In this document: positions 1,204 through 18,429 of the stretch, piece after piece
Numbering within the stretch: position 1 is the stretch's first letter
Layout: every line of letters starts with the position of its first letter
Assembly (NCBI GenBank): GCA_040757115.1
Contig: JBFLYA010000065.1
Span: forward strand, 1-18,797
Length of the DNA: 18,797 bases
Source of the DNA: a bacterium
Lineage (GTDB): Bacteria > UBA9089 > CG2-30-40-21 > SBAY01
Reading direction: 5' to 3'
The notes under the pieces: model-generated
The model's input: only the letters and a program-made list of their open reading frames with translations
Told to the model about the DNA's origin: nothing
The model's database searches: none
Position numbers and translations under genes: made by a program

Positions 1204-1788
1204 TTACAATATTTCTCCATAATCCACCTCAATTCCATTGTCAATCTTTTTATAGATGATGATTTTGATGTCTATGTGCTCTGGTAATGCAGCTTTCACC
1301 TCATAGGTATGGGGCTTTATAGATACGGAGATGTCTCCGATGTAACCATCTATTCCTTTTGATTCTTCATCTGGCTCGGATAAACGGTAATTCGTTTTCT
1401 TTATCTCAGCACCCTTCTTAAGTATTGCTTCCTGAAATCTGAGCCCAGCAAAAGTTTTCACGATCACTAAATCTATTACCCATTGTTCAACCATCTTTTG
1501 GTCAATTTTATTCAGAGAATTTTTAAGTTCTTTCAATTTCTGTAATATCTTCTCTATGGCATTTTTGATTGCATCTGGCTTTTTCTCCAAGTACCACTTT
1601 TCCCACTCAGATAGCGTTTTTCCTTCAAACTCCTGAATAATCTCACTCATTTGACCAACAACTCTTGGGCGTGTTCCTTGCGCATATTGATTTGCCAAAT
1701 TGATGAGTGGTGCTACATACTTAGGAAACTCTGGCGTCTCTATGTCCAGATATTTTCTGATTTCTTCGATAGTGATTTTTACTTTCAT
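1204..1788 (-). CDS. Type II restriction endonuclease, MjaI-like family
   Basis: A 194-residue protein that I recognise as like the RE_MjaI family (the prototype recognises CTAG) from the N-terminal stretch FPKYVAPLINLANQYAQGTR followed by VVGQMSEIIQEF, a characteristic block of that family. A plausible PD-(D/E)XK-type active site lies near GIDGYIGDISVSIK (about residues 145-158), with D and K in the right order but serine in place of the usual second acid, so the catalytic assignment is tentative. The start ATG overlaps the methyltransferase stop by 4 nt (ATGA), so the methylase is made first and the nuclease is translationally coupled to it. Specificity for CTAG is an inference from the family only. 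Confidence 0.75.
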   Translation of the reverse strand: MKVKITIEEIRKYLDIETPEFPKYVAPLINLANQYAQGTRPRVVGQMSEIIQEFEGKTLSEWEKWYLEKKPDAIKNAIEKILQKLKELKNSLNKIDQKMVEQWVIDLVIVKTFAGLRFQEAILKKGAEIKKTNYRLSEPDEESKGIDGYIGDISVSIKPHTYEVKAALPEHIDIKIIIYKKIDNGIEVDYGEIL

Positions 1789-3089
1789 GTTACACCCTTT
1801 TGATCTCCATTTTGAAAGTTTAAAAATTTCGCCTTGTATTTATAGTCAAAAGTAGTATCCACATCAACCAAACTATTCTTAATCAAATGAGCATTTAAAA
1901 ATGTCTTATTCCACAAATAAAGATAACAAAGCAAGTTGTTTTTCTCATCGTATTTCACATTATCAAACTTTAGAAACACCTTTTGCCCACAAGTCTTGTC
2001 TCTTAAGAATTGAACAGCCTCTCCATTTTTTTCTGGTCTCTCCTTTACACCTAATAGTTTGATTTTTAGTCCGTTATTTAAAATCAATATCTCTGGGGAG
2101 ATTATTTCTTTTACCGTGTAATGTGTTTCGCTTTCGTAATGTGAATTATCTATTTTCGAACCAAACCTTAATTCTCTCGGGTCAACCTTCTTATCAAATC
2201 TTATAGGGTCGCTGAATTTATATGGCAATTTTTTAATTTCCTCTTTAAAGTCTATTTTTGGGTCTTCTTGCTTAACTATCTCAAAAGTTGCATTTTGAAA
2301 AATAGTACTCTGCTTTAACCCAAGTTTATCTTTTATAATCGGTAGGAACTCCTCATTTATTTCGTAGCCGATAGAGTTTCTATTCAGATTTTTTGCTGCT
2401 AAAGATGTCGTGCCACTACCAAGAAAAGGGTCAAGAACAGTATCATCAACAAAACTGAACATTTTGATGAGTCGTCTTGGTAACTCCTCAGGGAACATCG
2501 CCAGATGTTTATCTTGTTTTTCACCTGGAAAATTCCAGTGTCCTGTGAAATATTGATTCCATTCTTCTTGCGTTAGTTTTGATTGCTCTTTAATTTCATA
2601 GCTTACCTTTGGTGGATTTCCATATTTTTTGAAAATTAAAATAAATTCGTAATCCAATTTAAGAATCCCATTTCTGGGATATGGGAAAGACCCCATTACT
2701 GTTGCTCCACCAGTGGTATGGCAAGTAGTGACTTTTTGCCAGATAATTGCTCCCATATAATCGAACCCCCCGCTTTCACAGAACTTGATGATTTCAGTCC
2801 TTATCGGAATAATTTTATATCTTCCATAATAAACAGAACGAGCGAATTGGTCACCAATGTTAATACACAAACGGCAACCTTTATGCAAAATCCTGTGGCA
2901 CTCATTCCACACCAAATTAAGGTTGTTTATATATTCTTCATAACTATCATTGAAACCTATCTGTTTTCCATTTCCATAATCCTTCAGTTGCCAATAGGGT
3001 GGAGATGTAATGATAAGATGTACTGATTCATCCTGGATCTCTTTCATCCATCTTGAATCACCTATGATTATTTTGTGTTTTGTTTTCAT
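1785..3089 (-). CDS. DNA methyltransferase (SPPY type) with C-terminal SNase-like domain
   Basis: Modification partner of the adjoining restriction enzyme. The catalytic motif TSPPY is at residues 28-32 and the SAM-binding DPFLGSGTT at 220-228. That order (catalytic motif first) is the beta class, and SPPY is commonest in N4-cytosine methylases, though N6-adenine cannot be excluded. After the methylase fold, residues about 322-425 resemble a staphylococcal-nuclease (TNase/OB) domain: KIKLLGVKERPEKNGEAVQF, then GQKVFLKFD and LLCYLYL. The canonical SNase catalytic arginines are not clearly all present, so this tail may serve DNA binding, not cleavage. Total 434 residues is long for the class because of the tail. 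The start ATG lies about 50 nt from the cassette end and has a modest AGG-type ribosome site. Confidence 0.88.
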   Translation of the reverse strand: MKTKHKIIIGDSRWMKEIQDESVHLIITSPPYWQLKDYGNGKQIGFNDSYEEYINNLNLVWNECHRILHKGCRLCINIGDQFARSVYYGRYKIIPIRTEIIKFCESGGFDYMGAIIWQKVTTCHTTGGATVMGSFPYPRNGILKLDYEFILIFKKYGNPPKVSYEIKEQSKLTQEEWNQYFTGHWNFPGEKQDKHLAMFPEELPRRLIKMFSFVDDTVLDPFLGSGTTSLAAKNLNRNSIGYEINEEFLPIIKDKLGLKQSTIFQNATFEIVKQEDPKIDFKEEIKKLPYKFSDPIRFDKKVDPRELRFGSKIDNSHYESETHYTVKEIISPEILILNNGLKIKLLGVKERPEKNGEAVQFLRDKTCGQKVFLKFDNVKYDEKNNLLCYLYLWNKTFLNAHLIKNSLVDVDTTFDYKYKAKFLNFQNGDQKGVT

Positions 3090-3133: not shown

Positions 3134-3213
3134 GCCCAACGGGATGCGGATAAAAGAAGTTGCCAAAAACATTTTGGGGAAATCTTTGATTTCCCTTTTA
3201 TCCGCTGTTGTGC
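3134..3213. repeat. attC-like cassette boundary site 2 (compact)
   Basis: At 80 bp this is one of the cleanest sites. Box GCCCAAC (3134-3140, a perfect RYYYAAC) is followed by a 5-nt spacer GGGAT, arm GCGGATAAAAG (3146-3156), a central part with the palindrome GGGAAATC-TTT-GATTTCCC, the complementary arm CTTTTATCCGC (3195-3205), a 1-nt spacer and box GTTGTGC (3207-3213). This is the R-spacer-L-loop-L-spacer-R order of integron attC sites. The left arm is mosaic: it begins like unit A (GGGATGCGGAT) and continues like unit C (AAAAGAAG). Confidence 0.75.
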
Positions 3214-4926: not shown

Positions 4927-4960
4927 GTTTTCCTCCTTGCTAACATTCTTTGACAATTTC

Positions 4961-5293
4961 GCCCAACGGGATGCGGATGAGCGAAGTGCCCCAAAGGGGC
5001 ATAGGTTCGACAGGCTCACTACAAGTTTTGGCTTCAGCCCCGATCCACTTCGTGCGACCCACCTTTGGTGGGTACCCCGCCGCCGCTGATAGCCAAAGTG
5101 ACGCTTCGCAACTTCCCTTTTTCAAAAAATCCCCTTTGAGTTACATAAAGCTTTCGCCTTTCGCTCATTCGCATCCCGATAACCAAAATGGAGCGAAGCG
5201 ACATTTTGGTTATCGTTTTCGCTGTTTGTGAAGCCCGAAGGGCATTTGGGCGAAGCCGCCGAGGGCGGACGAGCCACAAACTCTGTGTTAGCC
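4961..5293. repeat. attC-like cassette boundary site 3 (triple hairpin)
   Basis: Outer boxes are GCCCAAC (4961-4967) and GTTAGCC (5287-5293). Unit A, about 210 bp (4967-5178), has arms CGGGATGCGGATGAGCG and near-complement and holds two further palindromes (TGCCCC-AAA-GGGGCA and ACCCACC-TTT-GGTGGGT) plus GGTTCGACAGGCTCACTAC. Unit B (5177-5215) is identical to that of sites 1 and 5. Unit C (about 5221-5284) has arms GTTTGTG and CACAAAC and a loop full of GC palindromes. Open frames crossing this site on both strands are by-products of the repeat. Confidence 0.75.
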
Positions 5294-7313: not shown

Positions 7314-8064
7314 TTGGGTTCCTCCCATTACATTCTTCATATAAAATCTTGTATACTTGCCACCTGACTTCTTTATCTGACCTTTTTATTACGTTGGAAT
7401 TTGCCAGTTTTATTACCCTACCTCTTTCATCATAAACCCAATTATTTCTATCTGCCTGATTACACTTTTCACACTGTGGGATAATGTTTCCTGCAACCAG
7501 AGGTTGATTTGGATCTTTATGTGCTATTTGTAAGCTGGTAATAGTGTTTGGCCAATGGATATGTGGCTTACTTTCTTCTGAACCACAGGTGACACATCTA
7601 TATCCATACTGTTTCTTAAGATTTTCCCAATCACCAGTTTCTTCTATTTTGTGCCCTTTGAAAGCAGGATAAGGTTTTTCCAGTGTTATAAGTTTATACT
7701 CTCCAGATTCAAGAGTCACATGTCTATTACCACGAGTGCCCGATACAATGAACCAGTCTTTTTGAGCCCCAAGATGCCTTGCTTGCTCAACATCAGCCGT
7801 ATCAGGATAATATTGGCGAACGAATTGTGTAAGTTCTCCTTTTGAAATCTTTTTCGCCTTAGGATAACCCTGTGCCAGATAAACTAATACAAGAGTATCC
7901 TTTGTATAATTCCCATGTGTATCGTCAACTTAGGTAGTTTCACTTCATATTGCTTTAAATGTTTATCATGATACTCGCATATCATTTTGTAAATCTTCTT
8001 TATCTCCTTGTCAGATAATCGTTTCATATTTTATCTCCTTTTCAGACGACCAATTGCGTATAAC
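6255..8064 (-). mobile_element. Cassette 5 (HNH restriction-modification)
   Basis: The left end GTTATATGCTGTTGGTCG at 6255 and the right end, minus strand GTTATACGCAATTGGTCG ending at 8064, match at 15 of 18 positions. The mismatches lie mainly at the TG versus AA positions that recur in other cassettes. Confidence 0.65.
7306..8027 (-). pseudogene. HNH restriction endonuclease gene with a frameshift
   Basis: Restriction partner of the methyltransferase at 6246-7313. Reading from ATG at 8027 (AAGGAG upstream) gives MKRLSDKEIKKIYKMICEYH...VKLPKL, then the frame runs to a stop near 7887. From about 7926 the other frame continues smoothly as DDTHGNYTKDTLVLVYLAQG, through ARHLGAQKDWFIVSGTRGNR, into an HNH/zinc domain: CVTCGS, then IAHKDPNQPLVAGNIIPQCE, KCNQADRNNWVYDE. 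The two parts together encode about 240 residues and are one base short of being in frame, at 7926-7929 (AAGTTGACG). Either the gene is inactivated by a 1-nt deletion or the base is missing from the assembly. An internal ATG at 7719 could express only the HNH half (137 residues). Recognition sequence unknown. Confidence 0.8.
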
Positions 8065-8387
8065 GGGATACGGATGAGCGAAGTGCCCCAAAGGGGCATA
8101 GGTTCGACAGGCTCACTACAAGTTTTGGCTTCAGCCCCGACCCACTTCGTGCGACCCACCTTTGGTGGGTACCCCGCCGCCGCTGATAGCCGAAGTGACG
8201 CAGAGCAACTTCCCTTTTTCAAAAAATCCCCTTTGAGTTACATAAAGCTTTCGCCTTTCGCTCATCCGCATCCCGATAACCAAAATGGAGCGAAGCGACA
8301 TTTTGGTTATCGTTTTCGGTGTAAAAGAAGTTTCAGCGAAGCCGAATTTGGACGAAGCGAAGCGTAGTCTTTTACACCGTGTTATGT
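8058..8387. repeat. attC-like cassette boundary site 5 (triple hairpin)
   Basis: Outer boxes are GTATAAC (8058-8064) and GTTATGT (8381-8387). Unit A (8064-8275) is nearly identical to site 3 apart from a few substitutions. Unit B (8274-8312) is identical to sites 1 and 3. Unit C (about 8319-8378) has arms GGTGTAAAAG and CTTTTACACC. The stop codon of the small gene at 8382-8534 sits in the right box. Confidence 0.75.
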
Positions 8388-9024: not shown

Positions 9025-9113
9025 AGATAACGTTCCCAGCATAAAAGAAGTTTTTGCGAAGCAAAAATTTGGGTGAGTGCCATAAGGCACGAACCTTTTA
9101 TGCTCTGTTATAC
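9025..9113. repeat. attC-like cassette boundary site 6
   Basis: An 89-bp site with boxes AGATAAC (9025-9031) and GTTATAC (9107-9113), spacer GTTCCC, arms CAGCATAAAAG (9037-9047) and CCTTTTATGCT (9094-9104). The loop carries TTTTTGC-GAA-GCAAAAA and the GTGCC/GGCAC hairpin. It is closely related to unit C of site 1, showing that unit C can exist alone as a complete site. Confidence 0.75.
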
Positions 9114-10161
9114 AACTGTGCCGTGCTCATTCTAAGAAACTCTTAGAAAATCTCATTTTAATTTCCTTGCAACTCCTTAAGAATGAAATCTATCCATTTT
9201 TGATACCAATACCATGTCCCACAAACTTCGACACCAAATCCTTTGGCAGGATTTTTGCCATTATGGTCTTTCCAGAATTGGGTGTGTTGAGACGGTCCAA
9301 ATTCATTATGACCTTCAGCTTGAACTTTTTTCAGAACATCTTTTCGTAAAAATTTAGGTTTTTCTCTATCTTCTTTTATCCAATATTCCTTTGATATATT
9401 CTTGGCTAATGGCGATTCAGGGTCAATAAATTCAATCACTCTATCCGCTTGCCCTTGCCTTTTAGCAACAACCTTTGAAAATAAAAGCCGATAAGCAAAT
9501 CTATCGCTCTTTATTTCATCATCAGTAAGAGAGTTGTCAAAATCCGCAATATATGAGTGAATTTCTTTTGGTATTAACCCTTCCTTATCTTTAATTATAT
9601 TTGCTTGTGTATAATCAAGTTCTGCAAACTGCAAACTTAAAGCTAAATTATTATCAAGTGAGTATTTTGTACCAAATAGTTCTTTCAAATAGTAATTATA
9701 ATTCAAAGCACATGCTTGGTAACGGGCCGAAAGGTAAGAATCTAATCCAGTAGCTTTTTTATGCTCAATTTGATTTCGTAATCCTATAAGAAATTTAAGA
9801 TTGTTTGAAGTATTTTTATCAAGAGGGCATTCAGATTTTGAAATACATTCCTTGATGTCCCAATGTTTAATGCTTCCATCTGGGTTTCGTAAGAATTTCT
9901 TCCGCTCCTTGGGAATAGTGTAATAACGGTAATCAATTTTTTTTGACCTATAGTATGCATGAAGAAGATATGTCCAAGCAATAATAAAAAGTACTATGAA
10001 TGATTCCGTTTTAAAGGTAGTAAGAGGGTTATTATATATTTGAACAGCAGAGAGAGCTGCTTCTCTTGATTTTAAGATTAAATCTACCTTTTCAGAAAAG
10101 AGTCGTCTATGCATATTTTCAATTCCTTCTATTTACTTCTAGGCACGGCATGTTGTATAAC
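9107..10161 (-). mobile_element. Cassette 7 (DUF3644 gene)
   Basis: The left end GTTATACAACTGTGCCGTGC at 9107 and the right end, minus strand GTTATACAACATGCCGTGC ending at 10161, match along their whole length apart from a TG/A difference and a 1-nt gap. Confidence 0.7.
9158..10114 (-). CDS. DUF3644 protein with HEPN-like motif
   Basis: A 318-residue protein recognised as DUF3644 from its N-terminal block SREAALSAVQIYNNPLTTFK followed by TESFIVLFIIAWTYLLHA. A HEPN-type RNA-cleavage signature RNxxxH is present at residues 113-118 (GLRNQIEHK), which places it plausibly with HEPN ribonucleases. The hydrophobic stretch at about residues 38-55 belongs to the domain and need not be a membrane segment. 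The C-terminal half (from about residue 200) is basic and includes a segment FGPSQHTQFWKDHNGKNP reminiscent of a nucleic-acid-binding tail. It has a GAAGGA ribosome site and is alone in its cassette. RNase and defence roles are inferred. Confidence 0.72.
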   Translation of the reverse strand: MHRRLFSEKVDLILKSREAALSAVQIYNNPLTTFKTESFIVLFIIAWTYLLHAYYRSKKIDYRYYTIPKERKKFLRNPDGSIKHWDIKECISKSECPLDKNTSNNLKFLIGLRNQIEHKKATGLDSYLSARYQACALNYNYYLKELFGTKYSLDNNLALSLQFAELDYTQANIIKDKEGLIPKEIHSYIADFDNSLTDDEIKSDRFAYRLLFSKVVAKRQGQADRVIEFIDPESPLAKNISKEYWIKEDREKPKFLRKDVLKKVQAEGHNEFGPSQHTQFWKDHNGKNPAKGFGVEVCGTWYWYQKWIDFILKELQGN

Positions 10162-10236
10162 GTTCCTGATGTAAAAGAAGTTTTGCGAAGCAAAATTTGG
10201 ACGAAGTGAAACGAAGTCTTTTACATCGTGTTATAC
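10155..10236. repeat. attC-like cassette boundary site 7
   Basis: An 82-bp site with boxes GTATAAC (10155-10161) and GTTATAC (10230-10236), which are perfectly complementary although they belong to different cassettes. Arms are GATGTAAAAG (10168-10177) and CTTTTACATC (10218-10227). The loop contains TTTTGC-GAA-GCAAAA and ACGAAGTGAAACGAAGT. Confidence 0.75.
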
Positions 10237-10277: not shown

Positions 10278-10478
10278 TTATGCCTTTCTCAATAAAACCC
10301 CTTTCTCACTTGGTCTAACTTGAGCTACTCCATCTAAATGTTTGATATTTTCTAACCCTTTCTTTGTAGTCTCAACTCCTACAATATCTGTAAGACTGGA
10401 GACAAATAAAATATTGCCGTATTCTTTAATCCTCTCAACTGCCTGAGTATCCTTAATTTTGGCTAAGATTCTAATCAT
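10278..10478 (-). CDS. Free-standing subtilase propeptide-like protein (putative protease inhibitor)
   Basis: A 66-residue protein plainly homologous to the first 66 residues of the subtilase encoded just upstream: both start M(I)R(I/L)LAK(I/L)KD, share DI(V/I)G(V/L)ET in the middle and end R.SEKG..L. In subtilases this region is the inhibitor/chaperone propeptide (I9-like fold). A separate copy could act in trans as an inhibitor or folding aid of the neighbouring protease. The start ATG overlaps the subtilase stop by 4 nt (ATGA), with a strong GGAGGTG 10 nt upstream, so it is likely made in fixed proportion to the protease or in excess. The inhibitor role is inference from homology and linkage. 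Confidence 0.75.
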   Translation of the reverse strand: MIRILAKIKDTQAVERIKEYGNILFVSSLTDIVGVETTKKGLENIKHLDGVAQVRPSEKGVLLRKA

Positions 10479-11458
10479 TCTTCTAACACCTCCAGTAACT
10501 TATGGATATTAAGCAACCCATATCCCTGTTCATTTCTTCTATATCCCAAGTCCTTGCAACTCTGTTTTATAGAATTTATTACCCATTCTTTATCTTGATA
10601 CTTACTAAAAAGAGAAGCTAATGTGCCTGTTATTATTGGTGTGGAGATAGAAGTTCCCATAACCTTAAATTTGCCAATAGAAAGAGAACCCGGGGCTAGC
10701 AAATCCGGCTTTTCTTGAAATACAAACCCTCTACTGCTGTAATTAGCTATCTTTTCATCCTCACTCGCTCCAATGGTTATCGCCTTATTGGCATTACCTG
10801 GACAGGATATAGTTCCTTCTTCTGGTCCCCAATTCCCAGCCGCAGATACTACATATAGACCATTATCAACCAATACATCTACATACTGACAAAGCCAGCA
10901 GTCTCCCTGACATCTTCTGGAAAAACCCAAAGATAGGTTGACTATATGAGCTTTATTTTGATAAGACCATTCTAAGGCTTGAAATAATGCTATCTCGTCA
11001 ACCTCTCCAAAACGGTTTACTACCTTTCCAATCAACATTGAGGAGTCAGGAGCAATTGACTGAATTAGCTTAGAGATAATAGTGCCATGAGTAATCTCAT
11101 CTTGCAACCCTTCTTCTGTAAAGTCTTTATCCAGGATAACCGAATATTTTAATCCCGAATCTTGAAGGAATACTCCACTATCCAAGATAGAGATATAGAT
11201 ACCTGCACCAAATAGACCCATCTCATGAAGATGTTGAATCCCTATCTTAAACAATGTTTGATTGAATAAGATGGTCCCTTTCTCACTCTCTCTGAACTCT
11301 TCGATAAAACCAATCTGTTTTAATGCTTCTGGGTATTTTGTTTCAAGACCAATTATATCAACAAGCTTCGTTTGGAAGAGTAAGGATACTCCTATCTTTT
11401 TTAATTCTTCTATATGCTCAGACTTCATCTTATCCTTTAACTTTGCAAGTAGTCGCAT
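10475..11458 (-). CDS. Cytoplasmic subtilisin-like serine protease (S8)
   Basis: A 327-residue subtilase with a complete catalytic set: D93 (ISILDSGV), H124 (EITHGT), oxyanion N209 (SAAGNWGPEE) and S270 (VMGTSISTP). Residues 1 to about 66 form a propeptide-like domain; no signal peptide precedes it, so the protease probably acts inside the cell. A cysteine cluster around residues 183-190 (CQGDCWLC) plus C219 is unusual and might bind metal or form a redox switch. It lies 17 nt downstream of the large STAND gene (RBS AGAGG) and is coupled to the propeptide gene. In known conflict systems, STAND ATPase-TPR sensors are paired with peptidase effectors; this protease is the likely effector, kept inactive until the sensor is triggered. 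Confidence 0.88.
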   Translation of the reverse strand: MRLLAKLKDKMKSEHIEELKKIGVSLLFQTKLVDIIGLETKYPEALKQIGFIEEFRESEKGTILFNQTLFKIGIQHLHEMGLFGAGIYISILDSGVFLQDSGLKYSVILDKDFTEEGLQDEITHGTIISKLIQSIAPDSSMLIGKVVNRFGEVDEIALFQALEWSYQNKAHIVNLSLGFSRRCQGDCWLCQYVDVLVDNGLYVVSAAGNWGPEEGTISCPGNANKAITIGASEDEKIANYSSRGFVFQEKPDLLAPGSLSIGKFKVMGTSISTPIITGTLASLFSKYQDKEWVINSIKQSCKDLGYRRNEQGYGLLNIHKLLEVLEE

Positions 11459-11475
11459 AATCCTCTACCTTTTTA

Positions 11476-14400
11476 TCATACAAAATGATTTTTAAATAAA
11501 GCTTGAATTTCTTTAGCAATAGCGACTCGGTCAGGCATGTAATTTTCTTTTTCAAGTTCTGTAAGATGCCAATCAATCTCTACGGTTAACCACTCATGCT
11601 TGCCACTTATGTCAGTTAGTTTAACCTCCATGTCATTCAGAGGATCAATGTAATTCTTGTAATCCTTTCCCTCCAAAGCTAATGCAATACAAACAAGCGA
11701 AGCAGCAATCACTTTTTCTTTATCTAAGAGAGTACCTCGAGTCAATCTTTTATAAGTAGCGATAACCTCATTGTACCTTCTAAGACAAATTTTCACTTCC
11801 ATTTCTCCTAAAAATGCCATTTTATTTAAAGGGTTAAGTCCAGTAGCCATCTGATAATCAGGGATAGAATTTACCAAATCTCCTTTTTGAGAATAGCAAC
11901 CAGCCCTTTGCATATAATTATTATCATTACCTGGTTCAATCTTAATCGCCTTAGTGAAGTCCTGAATTGCCATATTTAAATAGTTTTCAGCGTATTCAGG
12001 GGAACAGACAGCCAAAATTCTATAACATATTCCTCGTCGATTATAGGCACCAGCAAAGCTTGGGTTTATTTCTAAGACTTCAGTATATTTTTCTGCTGCC
12101 TTTTCCAAATTATCTTTTTTAAACAAATCATTAGCTTCTTTTAATGCTTGCTTGTACTTAATAACATCTTCTTCACTTAGGTAGTGTTTTTTAAAGAGAT
12201 TATGAATTATTAAGGCATTATCAATCCGATCCTGTGAAATTCCTAACTCTTTTAGCTTGGGCTCAGAAATATATGGTTCAATATCATTTGGATCATAAAT
12301 ATCCTTAAAGAGCTTAATTGTAATATCTTTTAATGAAGCCATGTAATCTTCGTATGGTATACCCTCTAAGGAGAGAGCTAAACATATAAAATGTGCTGCA
12401 ATTACCCTATATTGATGGGACAGTCTATTTATGCGAATGTCTTTATATGTTTTTCTGGCTTCAGAATACCTACATAGCCAAATTTCAATCTCCATTTTAG
12501 ACATTATTGCAGCTATATTTTGGGGATTCAACCTAATTGCCTCACCATAGTCTGAAATTGCCTTCTCTAAATCTTTCTTATATACATAGCAGTTACCCCT
12601 TCCATGAAATAATGAGCTGGTAGGTTTAATCTGTATAGCTCTGGTATAGTTTTCAATTCCATTGTCAAAGAATTTGTTATTATCTTTTGACTTACCTAAC
12701 TTCAAATATATATCTCCTACCATTTCATATGTTTTGGCAAGATTTGAACCTATTTCTATAGCTTTATCACACTCTTCCAATGCAGTTTCAATCTGGTCAT
12801 TTTTAAAGAGTTGGTTTGCTTCTGCCAAGTAGATTTTACATAGCTGGTTACTGTAAACCCCTTCAGATATAAAATCTCCACTTCCTTTTGCCACAGCTAT
12901 CGCCTGGTGATAATAGTCTATCGCCTTGCTAAATTGGTTTGAGAAAAAGGAGAGATTTCCAAGATTAGAAACGAAACTACCTTCTTGTTGTTTATCTCCA
13001 ATTTTTTTGGCAATTTCTAAGCCATCACGATAATACTCCTCAGCCTGCTTAAATTGACTTAATAAAGCATAAATATTCCCAAGATTGCAGAGAGCCTTCA
13101 TTTGATTTGTTAAGTCTTTATTCTCTTTGGCATTGCTTAGTTCATCTGATAAAGAGCCTATTTTCTTATTTTTCTTATCCCACTGTTTTATTTTTTCTTT
13201 AAAGAAATCTTGAACCGAATCTTCATATTGTTCATCTCCAATCTCTTTAGCAATATTTTCTGCCTGAATAAAACATTCCATTGCCTTGTCAGATTGACCT
13301 GACTTGATATATACATCACCAAGCATAGAAATATAATTACCTTCATTCTGTAGATCTTCATCTTCTTGAGCGATTTTTAGTGCCTTAGAAAGATAACCAA
13401 TAGCCTTGTCAAATTGCTCTAATTTAGAATAGCTTTCTCCAATCTTAGACAAAATATTGCTTTCATGCTGTCTGTTCCTCATCTTTTTGGCAATATCAAG
13501 GCCATACTCAAAGTATTCAATAGCCTGATAAAACTCTAAGAGATCAAAGTACACTATGCCTATATTCCAGAGATCTGAAATCTCATTTTCTAGACTTCTC
13601 ATTTCTTTACTAATCTTCACCGCCTCTTTATAATATTCAATAGCTTCCAGGAATTCTGCAGAAGCCCAATATATGTTGCCAAGGGAAGATAATTGATAAT
13701 GTATTCCTTTTCTAAAGAGAATGCTCTTTGAGATAGATAAGGCATCTTTAAGAAAATCTATTGCCTTTGATGAATATCCTGATTTATAGTACTGGTTACC
13801 CAAAACACCAAGCCACCAGCTTTCATGTCTTCTGTCTTTGGTCTCAATAGCAATTGCATGGGCTAATTCATAACATTCAATTGCTTTTTTATGCTCGTCT
13901 CTTTCCTCATAAATATTTCCTAAATCCCCAAGCCATATACCTTCATATCTTCTATCTTTACTTTCAGGTTCGCGACAAATATCTATAGCCTGTTTATAGT
14001 ACTCCTCAGCCTTTTCCAAATCTCCTTTTGAATGGAGTGCATTACCCAAGCATCCAAAATTTCTTCCTTCAATCTTCCGATTTTTAATTTCCTTGAAAAA
14101 TGCTTTGGCCAGATTGTGGTATTCTATTGATTCATCGATTTCACCCAGAAAATGGCATACATCTCCTAAGTTTACAAGTTGTGTACATTCACTATTCTTA
14201 TCCTGGCAAACTTGGGCAATGGATAGAGCTTCTTTATAATATCTCTTTGCCTCTTGTATGTCTCCCAAATCGCGGAATACAAGCCCTAAATTACCAAGAA
14301 GAATACTTAACTTATCCTCTGGAATCTCTTTTCTTTTTTCTTCAAAACCTTTATAAATGTTCATCAACTCTCTAAAGTAACACCAAGAAAACAGTTTATC

Positions 14401-16608
14401 ATGTAGTCCTTCTTTCATAAATAATTCCACTGTTTCTTTAGTTCTCTCAGCAGATATGAGGTGCTCAATGGCATCAAGAAGAGGATATATATCCTCAATA
14501 GACTTCTTATGTTCCGATAAGAGGGATGCCTGGTTGAGGTAGAAATCTCCTGCCTTGCTATGAAGATAGATTTTTTCTTTATCTTTTAATTGACTTAACA
14601 CATATTCCCTTACTATTGCGTGAACATCATAAGTTTCTTCTTGAGGTCTTGACACAAGACATCGCTGGATTAGTTCATTCAAAGCATGAAGGCTCTCTCT
14701 TTCAGGCATATCTGTCACAAAAGAAAAAGCCTTTAGGTCACATGGTTTTAAAAATATACAAACAGAATGGAGAGCCTTCTTCAAATTTGAATCGTGAGAA
14801 ATCCTTTTGTAAGCCCGAGAGACGACATTAGTAGTAATCTTCTCTAATTTGCCCAACCAAAGGATGTCATCATTTATAATTGTTTGGATACCTGTAGAAG
14901 ATAGGGAAGGAGCTATCCACTCTAATGCACCAGGATGTCCTTGCATCTTTTCTCTTACCAGTGTTCTTATATCTTCAACCGACTTCTCCAAAATTGGTCT
15001 ATCTTCTTCAGAAATTCCCCTCTTGAGTATTTCTATTCCCGCAGATTCATCAACACCTTTAAGAAATATATGATGGAATTCCTTCTCTTCTGAATCTTTA
15101 GGTATCACCCACGCAGTAAGTATCAGCCTTGCACTCTCTAAATTCCTTGAGCAAGTTAAAAACTTAGCAAAACCCTCATCCTTTGGTTTAAGGGTTTTCC
15201 TATCAACAAGAACCTCAAATTGGTCAATAATAACAAGACATGAGTTCTTCTCAATTGTGTTTATGACTAATTGAACCTGCTCATCTACGGTGCTACCACC
15301 AAAATCTATATCCTCATCGGTTAGATATTTAATCAGTCGTCTTCCAAACTCAGAAAATGAAGGTGGTTTATCATAGTTAAGGCGTCTCCAATAATACCTT
15401 TTGAACTGCAACCATTTATCTTTTATTATTTTTTCAAAAAGTGCTGAAAGTAATTTTGACTTGCCGATTCCTTTAATGCCTACAATAGCAAAAGAATACC
15501 CTTTGAGTAAATTAAGGCATTTTTCTATCTCTTCTTCGCGTCCAAATAAATCTTTAGCTGGAACCTTATATTCTTCTTCTGAAATAGGTATAATTTTTCT
15601 TTTTCTTTCTTCCCTTTCCTTCCTTTCTTGCATCTCTTCCAAAACTTGAATAATCTCTGGTGGAAAAGGCTCCCTAAGGAATCGGTTCTCTTTAACATCG
15701 GAAGTAGTACTGATGTTAATCTGTATTTTATTATTTACCAATGTCTCTAATATCTGGGCATTCTTATTAGAAAACCCATCAATGAATATAGATTTAACCA
15801 ATGGACCATATTTTTCTTTGTCCTCTGGGCGCATTTGAATAACCACTTCAATCGCATAAGGGGTGTAGGAGCTGATCTCGGTCTGATTGTGTAACCACCA
15901 ATAAATTTCATCATGTGGGTCAAGTCTAAAATTCCTTACTGTTTCGAATGATACCCGATTACTTGCTATATCCAATTCATCAGAGAAGCGTAACATCGCC
16001 CCTATTAGTCGTTTGCGTTCATTCGAATTGAACTTGAACTTCTCGTCACAATCGTCAATTGGTAGTTTAGAATGGTACTTGCAGACATCCATCAAGTCCT
16101 CTACAAGATTTGAAGGAATAGTTTTAGCTGCAGGACCAAGGACAGAGTCTCCAGTCTCGTAGGCATACTCAATCCAGGCGGCACTGAAGTAGTGGTGGTT
16201 TTTGCGAATAGCTTTCTGCTCGTCTATGCTGTAGCTACTGGATGTCGAAGCAGTAAAGGTAACATCAAACTCTGCGCCCATTTTTTCAGCCCTCTCCTTA
16301 ATCTCAGGGAATCTGATAACATCACACTGCATTCCTATATCGTGCAAGTAGATACCTGCCAAAACCAGATACATTTCTTGTGCAGAAATGGGTTTACCTT
16401 GATTAACTTCTAACAATTTGTTTTTAAAATTTTCTACTACTCGCTCGCAATGTGTTTCATCATGGTAAGTACAATCCCGAATGATGCGTGGTGCATCAGA
16501 AGCCCATATATCTTCCATTGCTTCTCGAATTTGTGCAAGATTGGAGCGAAGACGATTGTTGGCAATATCCTTCAAAAGTTGTTCCTCAATAGCGGAAAAT
16601 TTAGCCAT
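11476..16608 (-). CDS. HD-domain, STAND ATPase and TPR sensor protein
   Basis: A 1710-residue multidomain protein. Residues about 1-320 form an HD-superfamily phosphohydrolase-like domain with the full ligand set: H49/H53 (YHDETH), H89-D90 (YLHDIGM), H138/H139, H179 (KYHSK) and D210 (RFSDELD). A charged linker (about 325-340, KEREERKRK) follows. Residues about 353-680 are a STAND/NACHT-like ATPase: Walker A GIKGIGKS at 377-384, Walker B LVIIDQFE at 458-465, GHPGAL at 557-562, and a winged-helix part. From about 700 to the end are some 20 or more TPR units in blocks: about 40-residue kinesin-light-chain-like repeats to about 1250, then canonical TPRs with LNP/IKP/INP ends. It is the first gene of an operon with subtilase and propeptide. 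It is probably a ligand-sensing switch that oligomerises and activates the protease. The HD domain may hydrolyse or bind a nucleotide signal. Confidence 0.88.
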   Translation of the reverse strand: MAKFSAIEEQLLKDIANNRLRSNLAQIREAMEDIWASDAPRIIRDCTYHDETHCERVVENFKNKLLEVNQGKPISAQEMYLVLAGIYLHDIGMQCDVIRFPEIKERAEKMGAEFDVTFTASTSSSYSIDEQKAIRKNHHYFSAAWIEYAYETGDSVLGPAAKTIPSNLVEDLMDVCKYHSKLPIDDCDEKFKFNSNERKRLIGAMLRFSDELDIASNRVSFETVRNFRLDPHDEIYWWLHNQTEISSYTPYAIEVVIQMRPEDKEKYGPLVKSIFIDGFSNKNAQILETLVNNKIQINISTTSDVKENRFLREPFPPEIIQVLEEMQERKEREERKRKIIPISEEEYKVPAKDLFGREEEIEKCLNLLKGYSFAIVGIKGIGKSKLLSALFEKIIKDKWLQFKRYYWRRLNYDKPPSFSEFGRRLIKYLTDEDIDFGGSTVDEQVQLVINTIEKNSCLVIIDQFEVLVDRKTLKPKDEGFAKFLTCSRNLESARLILTAWVIPKDSEEKEFHHIFLKGVDESAGIEILKRGISEEDRPILEKSVEDIRTLVREKMQGHPGALEWIAPSLSSTGIQTIINDDILWLGKLEKITTNVVSRAYKRISHDSNLKKALHSVCIFLKPCDLKAFSFVTDMPERESLHALNELIQRCLVSRPQEETYDVHAIVREYVLSQLKDKEKIYLHSKAGDFYLNQASLLSEHKKSIEDIYPLLDAIEHLISAERTKETVELFMKEGLHDKLFSWCYFRELMNIYKGFEEKRKEIPEDKLSILLGNLGLVFRDLGDIQEAKRYYKEALSIAQVCQDKNSECTQLVNLGDVCHFLGEIDESIEYHNLAKAFFKEIKNRKIEGRNFGCLGNALHSKGDLEKAEEYYKQAIDICREPESKDRRYEGIWLGDLGNIYEERDEHKKAIECYELAHAIAIETKDRRHESWWLGVLGNQYYKSGYSSKAIDFLKDALSISKSILFRKGIHYQLSSLGNIYWASAEFLEAIEYYKEAVKISKEMRSLENEISDLWNIGIVYFDLLEFYQAIEYFEYGLDIAKKMRNRQHESNILSKIGESYSKLEQFDKAIGYLSKALKIAQEDEDLQNEGNYISMLGDVYIKSGQSDKAMECFIQAENIAKEIGDEQYEDSVQDFFKEKIKQWDKKNKKIGSLSDELSNAKENKDLTNQMKALCNLGNIYALLSQFKQAEEYYRDGLEIAKKIGDKQQEGSFVSNLGNLSFFSNQFSKAIDYYHQAIAVAKGSGDFISEGVYSNQLCKIYLAEANQLFKNDQIETALEECDKAIEIGSNLAKTYEMVGDIYLKLGKSKDNNKFFDNGIENYTRAIQIKPTSSLFHGRGNCYVYKKDLEKAISDYGEAIRLNPQNIAAIMSKMEIEIWLCRYSEARKTYKDIRINRLSHQYRVIAAHFICLALSLEGIPYEDYMASLKDITIKLFKDIYDPNDIEPYISEPKLKELGISQDRIDNALIIHNLFKKHYLSEEDVIKYKQALKEANDLFKKDNLEKAAEKYTEVLEINPSFAGAYNRRGICYRILAVCSPEYAENYLNMAIQDFTKAIKIEPGNDNNYMQRAGCYSQKGDLVNSIPDYQMATGLNPLNKMAFLGEMEVKICLRRYNEVIATYKRLTRGTLLDKEKVIAASLVCIALALEGKDYKNYIDPLNDMEVKLTDISGKHEWLTVEIDWHLTELEKENYMPDRVAIAKEIQALFKNHFV

Positions 16609-16775
16609 GATTCTGTACCTCTTAACAATCTGTTTATACTTATGACAATATCATCTTAATTAGGAGTCTTACATAAATAAAAAAAACCAGGTTATTCATT
16701 CTCTTTTTTTCCAATTTATCTTTAAAAATAAGCTGATGACACCTAACATTTCTTAAATTAAGGGCACGGCATTGC
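16609..16775. other. Long AT-rich leader of the STAND operon
   Basis: About 165 bp separate the STAND start codon from the cassette end, against 30 to 50 bp in the other complete cassettes. The stretch is very AT-rich with A- and T-runs (for example near 16679-16690) and could hold a cassette-own promoter. Weak -10-like hexamers occur (TAAGAT and TATAAA on the minus strand), but no convincing -35 partner was found. AAGAGG precedes the ATG as ribosome site. Confidence 0.4.
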
Positions 16776-17120
16776 ATATAACGGGATGCGGATGAGCGAA
16801 GTGCCCCTTTAGGGGCATAGGTTCGACAGGCTCACTACAAATTTTGGCTTCAGCCCCGACCCGCAAGCGCGACCCACTTCGTGGGTTCCCCGCCGCCGCT
16901 GATAGCCGAAGTGACGCTTCGCAACTTCCCTTTTTCAAAGATTCCCCTTGAGTTACATAAAGCTTCCGCCTTTCGCTCATCTGCATCCCGATAACCAAAA
17001 TGCGAACCCCAAAGGGGTTCGAGCGAAGCGTCATTTTGGTTATCGTTCGCGGTGTTTGTGAAGTGCGAGCGTTAGCGAGCATTTGGGTGAGCGCAGCGAG
17101 CCACAAACACCGTGTTATCT
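16776..17120. repeat. attC-like cassette boundary site 8 (triple hairpin)
   Basis: Boxes are ATATAAC (16776-16782) and GTTATCT (17114-17120). Unit A (16782-16990) again has CGGGATGCGGATGAGCG arms and the GGTTCGACAGGCTCACTAC stretch. Unit B (16989-17045) is enlarged by an inserted palindrome CGAACCCC-AAA-GGGGTTCG at 17003-17021. Unit C has arms GGTGTTTGTG (17051-17060) and CACAAACACC (17102-17111), with a loop rich in GCGAGC palindromes. Confidence 0.75.
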
Positions 17121-18030: not shown

Positions 18031-18429
18031 TTATTTCTCAAATATTACTTTTCTATTCGAATGGTCAAATTTAATATCAAACTGATCGAATATGTCTAAC
18101 CTACCAAGTAAAAATGGCACCTCTTCTATTAAAACCCAACCAATTCGAGTTTCAACCTCATCATTTCCTATTTTAATCTTGACCCGTTTGATGATATAGG
18201 GAATTGCTCCTTCCCCAATGCCTTTGAGTTCTTTAATTTCTTCTTTTTCTATTTCAAATCCCAAGTAATCTCCTGCTCTTTTTGGTATCAAAGTAATATC
18301 TGCGCCAGAATCAAGGAGCATTTCGCATCTAAAACTCTTTTCACCACTGGTAACTCGGAGAACTACATATGGTTTCCGAATTACTCCAAAATCCTTTAAT
18401 TGTTCTTCACAATAAGGGAATTCAATCAT
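18031..18429 (-). CDS. Retropepsin-like aspartyl protease
   Basis: A 132-residue protein with the aspartyl-protease motif DSGAD at residues 40-44 (CEMLLDSGADITLIPK), the following KRAGDYLG stretch and a C-terminal LLGRLDIFDQFDIKFD, which match bacterial retropepsin-like domains that act as homodimers. There is no signal peptide. It overlaps the DUF5678 gene upstream by 4 nt (ATGA). DUF5678 and retropepsin-like genes are, to my knowledge, a recurrent pair; their joint role is unknown. Confidence 0.82.
   Translation of the reverse strand: MIEFPYCEEQLKDFGVIRKPYVVLRVTSGEKSFRCEMLLDSGADITLIPKRAGDYLGFEIEKEEIKELKGIGEGAIPYIIKRVKIKIGNDEVETRIGWVLIEEVPFLLGRLDIFDQFDIKFDHSNRKVIFEK

Follow-up and report, generated by a model that had tools for sequence, protein, structure and literature searches.

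The DNA analysed here, a stretch of 18,797 nt referred to below as the window, carries on its minus strand an operon of three genes which, according to its ORF list, run in the order sensor, subtilase and 66-aa protein. The sensor gene (11476-16608) encodes a protein of 1710 aa with HD-CE, nSTAND and TPR regions, the subtilase gene (10475-11458) a cytosolic-type protease of family S8 with 327 aa, whose residues 1 to ~66 are assigned to a prodomain, and the last gene (10278-10478) a stand-alone propeptide homologue of 66 aa; a leader read from the sequence (16609-16775, minus strand) lies upstream of the sensor gene, within the integron cassette described below. The gap between the sensor and subtilase genes is 17 nt, and the subtilase and 66-aa genes overlap by 4 nt (ATGA), where the stop of the former meets the start of the latter. 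This three-gene architecture, which had been claimed by a first-pass annotation, is borne out by the ORFs, domains, motifs and structural models and is not a product of chance.

The HD-CE domain of the sensor (aa 45-256) was identified with Pfam (PF24391, E 7.9e-25, 88.5 bits against a cut-off of 27) and its metal residues H53, H89-D90, H179 and D210 were located by a motif script, the profile and the H...HD...D residues together placing it among the HD-CE phosphohydrolase-like domains. An nSTAND1 match (E 1.2e-6, 28.9 bits against a cut-off of 27.1), the Walker A residue K383, a Walker B motif at 459-465 (VIIDQFE), a GHP motif of the GxP type at 557 and C-terminal repeats identify the protein as a STAND NTPase (nSTAND1); the repeats form a TPR array (aa ~770-1530) on which many Pfam TPR families scored above their cut-offs. 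The combination of HD, STAND and TPR had been called unusual, a judgement that we do not share, as HD-CE-STAND(-TPR) proteins recur in the host phylum. HD-CE domains are present in 12 of its 19 genomes (above the cut-off in 9), and residues H53, H89-D90 and D210 are common to the sensor and its phylum relatives. In three of these the HD-CE domain is followed, as in the sensor, by a STAND or AAA NTPase, namely nSTAND2 in L152, nSTAND5 and TPRs in L153, and an AAA domain in L154, with a TPR protein encoded by the next gene; a fourth relative, L151, has the order NACHT-HEAT-HD-CE. Unlike the sensor, L152, L153 and L154 have no subtilase beside them, and the best STAND subfamily is another one in L152 and L153; L151 likewise has no subtilase among its neighbours. 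Homologues of the sensor which lack an adjoining protease were to count against the first-pass proposal, and in part they do, with the neighbours of L153 being mostly unseen on its 3.5-kb contig. Since HD-CE and STAND are often found together without a protease, the protease appears to be an addition, and the window gene is the sole S8 profile match in the host genome. The HD-CE domain may itself be an effector in the sensor; a literature search on HD-CE returned nothing useful.

The subtilase belongs to family S8 by its profile (Peptidase_S8, PF00082, E 2e-25, 90.1 bits against a cut-off of 21.8), its catalytic residues D93, H124 and S270 with the oxyanion N209, and its subtilisin fold, the model of the catalytic domain reaching a pLDDT >90 and Z scores of ~34-35 against subtilisins. 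No signal-peptide-like segment was detected, the best 19-residue hydropathy window starting in the first 60 residues scoring 1.18 and the N-terminus being charged, so that the complete Asp-His-Asn-Ser set without a signal peptide described earlier stands. The first 66 residues were modelled with low confidence, and the assignment of this part as a prodomain therefore relies on sequence. Three cysteines spaced as Cys183-X3-Cys187-X2-Cys190, together with Cys219, are kept in the subtilases of the window and of Hakubella (see below) and possibly form a metal or redox site.

The 66-aa protein is 43% identical to aa 2-63 of the subtilase (E 1.9e-6, whole-genome search), and by alignment it appears to end at the expected cleavage point of the prodomain. 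Its model (pLDDT 85, with a low-confidence C-terminal tail) has the order b-a-b-b-a-b, and its 13 closest solved structures are without exception propeptides of subtilisins or prosubtilisins (Z 8.9 and 1.6-1.7 A for the best), while POIA1, a free inhibitor with the propeptide fold, matches at Z 6.9. As the unrelated NapD scores Z 8.3, the fold by itself is not decisive; fold and relation to the cognate prodomain together mark an I9-like stand-alone propeptide and uphold the separate propeptide homologue of the first-pass annotation. Neither the 66-aa protein nor the subtilase was listed at E <= 1 for Pfam Inhibitor_I9. Between the two copies of the free propeptide in the host genome dN/dS is 0.13 (11 synonymous and 6 non-synonymous changes), and the gene is under purifying selection between these copies. 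Stand-alone propeptide-like inhibitors are described in eukaryotes (POIA1, yeast proteinase B inhibitor, Arabidopsis SPI-1, TgMIC5 and Plasmodium SUB1-ProM, the gene of the last adjoining subtilase genes; PMC6993865). The 66-aa protein resembles them in having the propeptide fold encoded separately from the protease, and differs from them in being bacterial and cytosolic, in the overlap of its gene with that of the protease and in its location on a mobile cassette.

The operon is one ~6.6-kb integron cassette with three genes, a point absent from the first-pass annotation. It is closed at its 3' end by an attC-like site (10155-10236, minus strand; GTATAAC ... GTTATAC, 10/10 inner arm, 2- and 6-nt spacers), its bounds fall at recombination cores, and the genome encodes an integron integrase, with one full-length match above the cut-off on contig C39 (TIGR02249, 368.6 bits against 265). 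The 5' edge is marked by a composite repeat that resembles attC and belongs to the preceding cassette (16776-17120, minus strand; AGATAAC ... GTTATAT, nested inverted repeats), which was read by eye and was missed by a simple attC scan. A copy of the cassette 3' end on contig C338 is similar to the window up to 10155, at the attC core, beyond which the sequences differ. The intergenic repeats are attC-like and lie in gene direction: AAC is separated by a short spacer from an inner arm of 10 nt, and beyond a loop the matching arm is followed, after 5-6 nt, by GTT. A strict attC scan gave few sites and another scan none in the window; a relaxed scan placed sites at 3134-3213, 9025-9113 and 10155-10236 of the window, at 2941-3022 of locus L024 and at 2730-2811 of locus L025. 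Since single matches of the relaxed scan are near chance (0-6 per shuffle), we used only sites with a 10/10 arm, in gene direction and with comparative support. A second integron-integrase match above the cut-off carries an internal stop, and many fragments are also present in the host genome, with broken or partial copies on contigs C30, C63, C114, C116, C118, C154 and C324. A repeat of ~270 nt with nested inverted repeats was also observed at cassette borders (844-1115, 4954-5225, 8051-8322 and 16772-17060), and by eye a sequence resembling it occurs in L024 and in L154, from a genome of the same genus.

The neighbouring cassettes encode the candidate defence protein PDC-S19, a restriction-modification system consisting of an MjaI-type restriction enzyme and a DNA methyltransferase (1204-3089), a further DNA methyltransferase and a protein resembling retropepsins; these surroundings, rich in defence genes, lend support to the first-pass interpretation. 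The retropepsin-like aspartyl protease ORF occurs in two cassette arrays (window 18031-18429, Pfam RVP; L024 328-726, by eye). No MBL protein was found among the scanned proteins of the window, and the cassette has no target gene of the kind of an MBL pro-nuclease; nor did it show a gene for a precursor peptide or for a modifying enzyme.

Comparison with other loci shows that the conserved unit is the protease with the free propeptide and not the trio, the sensor not being co-conserved. The end of contig C224 and the start of contig C338 of the same genome both lie within a second subtilase gene, and we join the two contigs tentatively, on an exact 100-nt overlap in this draft assembly that is also found in the window. 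The joined order would be a weakly SIR2-like ORF, a frameshifted HerA-like ATPase (PADLOC HerA 9.7e-38, Pfam DUF87 8.9e-15), a broken subtilase gene that has lost most of its 5' part and is out of frame, and lastly an intact gene for a 66-aa propeptide. The first ORF has a weak PADLOC match to PDC-S65 (E 1.8e-4), which we take to be of SIR2 type, also from a motif seen by eye. In another phylum, Candidatus Hakubella thermalkaliphila (Actinomycetota) has the pair and no sensor; starting at residue 104, its subtilase shares 56% identity with that of the window, the Asp region being absent, and its 66-aa propeptide is intact (43%), starting one base after the subtilase stop. A broken protease thus stands beside an intact propeptide in both loci, as would fit a dangerous enzyme with an inhibitor that is harmless alone, two cases being few. 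The co-conservation expected by the first-pass annotation was accordingly found for protease and propeptide, which recur behind other genes or without a sensor: they travel as a pair, and their sensor partners appear to change.

A propeptide profile run over all loci examined detected only the window, C224-C338 and Hakubella, besides the subtilase's own prodomain. A scan of 84,980 species genomes, which was built on two short patterns and may have missed orthologues, yielded 167 S8 relatives; among the 80 of these that were retained none had the sensor, and Hakubella was the only one with a free propeptide. No further orthologue was found in the host phylum (19 genomes), the Hakubella class (40), Actinomycetota (396) or the phylum of locus L088 (Dehalococcoidia, 400). 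On plasmids, matches to the sensor were limited to the STAND part and the propeptide had no match, and IMG/VR scans gave distant S8 proteins and no close relatives. Rfam gave no match. Other S8 genes were also noted. In gut Clostridia (L053-L077) genes of ~380 aa are preceded, in the inspected cases, by an overlapping ORF of 85-100 aa that looks helical; it was rejected as an inhibitor analogue, its sequence being unlike a propeptide. S8 genes with a cysteine-rich head lie within apparent virus head-tail runs on two Geocrenenecus contigs and two IMG/VR contigs (L073, L084, L050, L051). An operon of a TPR-CHAT protease, an S8 subtilase and an MBL-fold hydrolase (L080:6-3125 / L004, G017:C185) resembles caspase-nuclease loci (PMC12799240) with an added subtilase.

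Taken together, these data lead us to favour, tentatively and with slightly less than an even chance of being right, a cytosolic protease that is gated by the sensor and restrained by a propeptide inhibitor of its own, to which it is translationally coupled, on a mobile integron cassette, probably acting against invaders. The inhibition, the contact between sensor and protease and the role in defence are what we infer for it, as follows. The subtilase would be kept silent through its own prodomain and the co-translated stand-alone propeptide, which would fit into the cleft of the active site much as a propeptide does after cleavage. A product of the invader, or damage to the cell, would be perceived by the TPR array, the STAND module would switch or oligomerise on ATP, and this switching would displace or outcompete the inhibitor, leaving the protease free to cut its target, for which the HD domain of the sensor, host proteins or phage proteins are candidates. 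The HD-CE domain would probably be a second effector, directed at nucleotides or nucleic acids, and the protease-inhibitor pair could be an exchangeable module attachable to other sensors. Such a model is favoured by the intact catalytic set, the subtilisin fold and the similarity of the free propeptide to subtilisin propeptides and POIA1, by the gene overlap, the close coupling kept in Hakubella and the purifying selection on the free propeptide, and by the defence-type neighbours and the reappearance of the pair in another phylum and downstream of a HerA-like and a weakly SIR2-like ORF. It is weakened by the trio having been seen in no other genome, by the degraded state of the C224-C338 locus with its inferred join and weak SIR2 match, by the missing MBL-type target gene in the cassette and by the low-confidence model of the prodomain. 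The first-pass claim is in this respect retained for an intact S8 protease with a tightly coupled trans propeptide homologue and for the co-conservation of these two, and abandoned for the trio as a conserved unit.

A serious rival, although we hold it doubtful, is that protease and free propeptide are a toxin-antitoxin-like pair stabilising the cassette or array, with an unrelated sensor that merely travels alongside and is equipped with an HD effector of its own. The conservation of the pair and not the trio, the overlap that couples the two genes, the survival of the inhibitor where the protease is broken and the HD-CE-STAND(-TPR) relatives without a protease all speak for it. However, in both loci of the host genome the pair stands behind a further multi-domain gene that has the same orientation, and there is no conserved promoter region of its own, only ~20 nt upstream of the subtilase being common to the loci by eye. 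Those relatives without a subtilase could also mean that HD-CE is the effector, with the subtilase having no role beyond trimming or maturing the sensor; the HD metal residues are intact and conserved, and STAND effectors are usually N-terminal. We nonetheless consider this improbable, a dedicated inhibitor being unusual for a simple maturase.

Whether the free propeptide is mainly an inhibitor bears on another reading, in which it acts in trans as a folding helper (foldase). The propeptides of mesophilic extracellular subtilases are both chaperones and inhibitors (PMC10580911). With a prodomain already in cis, however, there would seem to be no need for another that served folding only, and the free propeptide persists where the protease is broken, so that we give a foldase little credence. 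Least of all do we expect a system without a role in defence, with a housekeeping or peptide-processing protease that lies in the array by chance: the QhpE and PatA peptide-maturation S8 profiles do score on the subtilase, below their own cut-offs, but the cassette showed no precursor or modifying enzyme gene and adjoins cassettes with restriction-modification and a candidate defence gene.

The sensor-gated protease that we prefer can be extended to a more general, speculative and on balance unlikely proposal, that subtilase and stand-alone propeptide form a proteolytic toxin-antitoxin-like module on integron cassettes, plugged into different infection sensors each of which frees the protease; these would be the HD-CE-STAND-TPR protein in the window and, at the sister locus, a system of HerA type. 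If true, this would be a protease-inhibitor module that switches sensors, and a single integron cassette would hold an entire conflict operon of large size and several genes. An antiphage system relying on a protease must keep that enzyme silent in the cytosol, for which a dedicated inhibitor of the propeptide type, translated together with it, would offer a simple solution.

Unrelated antiphage systems have repeatedly acquired protease modules (PMC12799240). AVAST type I (Avs1), Hachiman, Lamassu and DRT nuclease-protease pairs combine, as here, a STAND or other sensor with a serine protease; in those systems a trypsin-like protease is fused to the system enzyme and a separate MBL pro-nuclease is its substrate (PMC12799240), whereas in the window the protease is an S8 subtilase encoded separately, its partner is propeptide-like and no MBL gene is present. 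In particular, the trypsin-like protease fused to Avs1a and the MBL nuclease gene that define AVAST type I are both missing from the window. The NucA-trypsin conflict systems of Kaur et al. 2020 (PMC7159879) are regulated by a peptidase, sometimes with an S8 domain, and may be linked to STAND; in the window, NucA and trypsin domains were not found and the protease has an inhibitor-like partner. IetAS also pairs an ATPase (AAA) with an S8 protease, and weak PADLOC IetS matches fall on the S8 domain of our subtilase (3e-9), which scores 18.5 against a cut-off of 900 for the NCBIfam IetS equivalog; the ATPase here differs in being an HD-CE-STAND-TPR protein.
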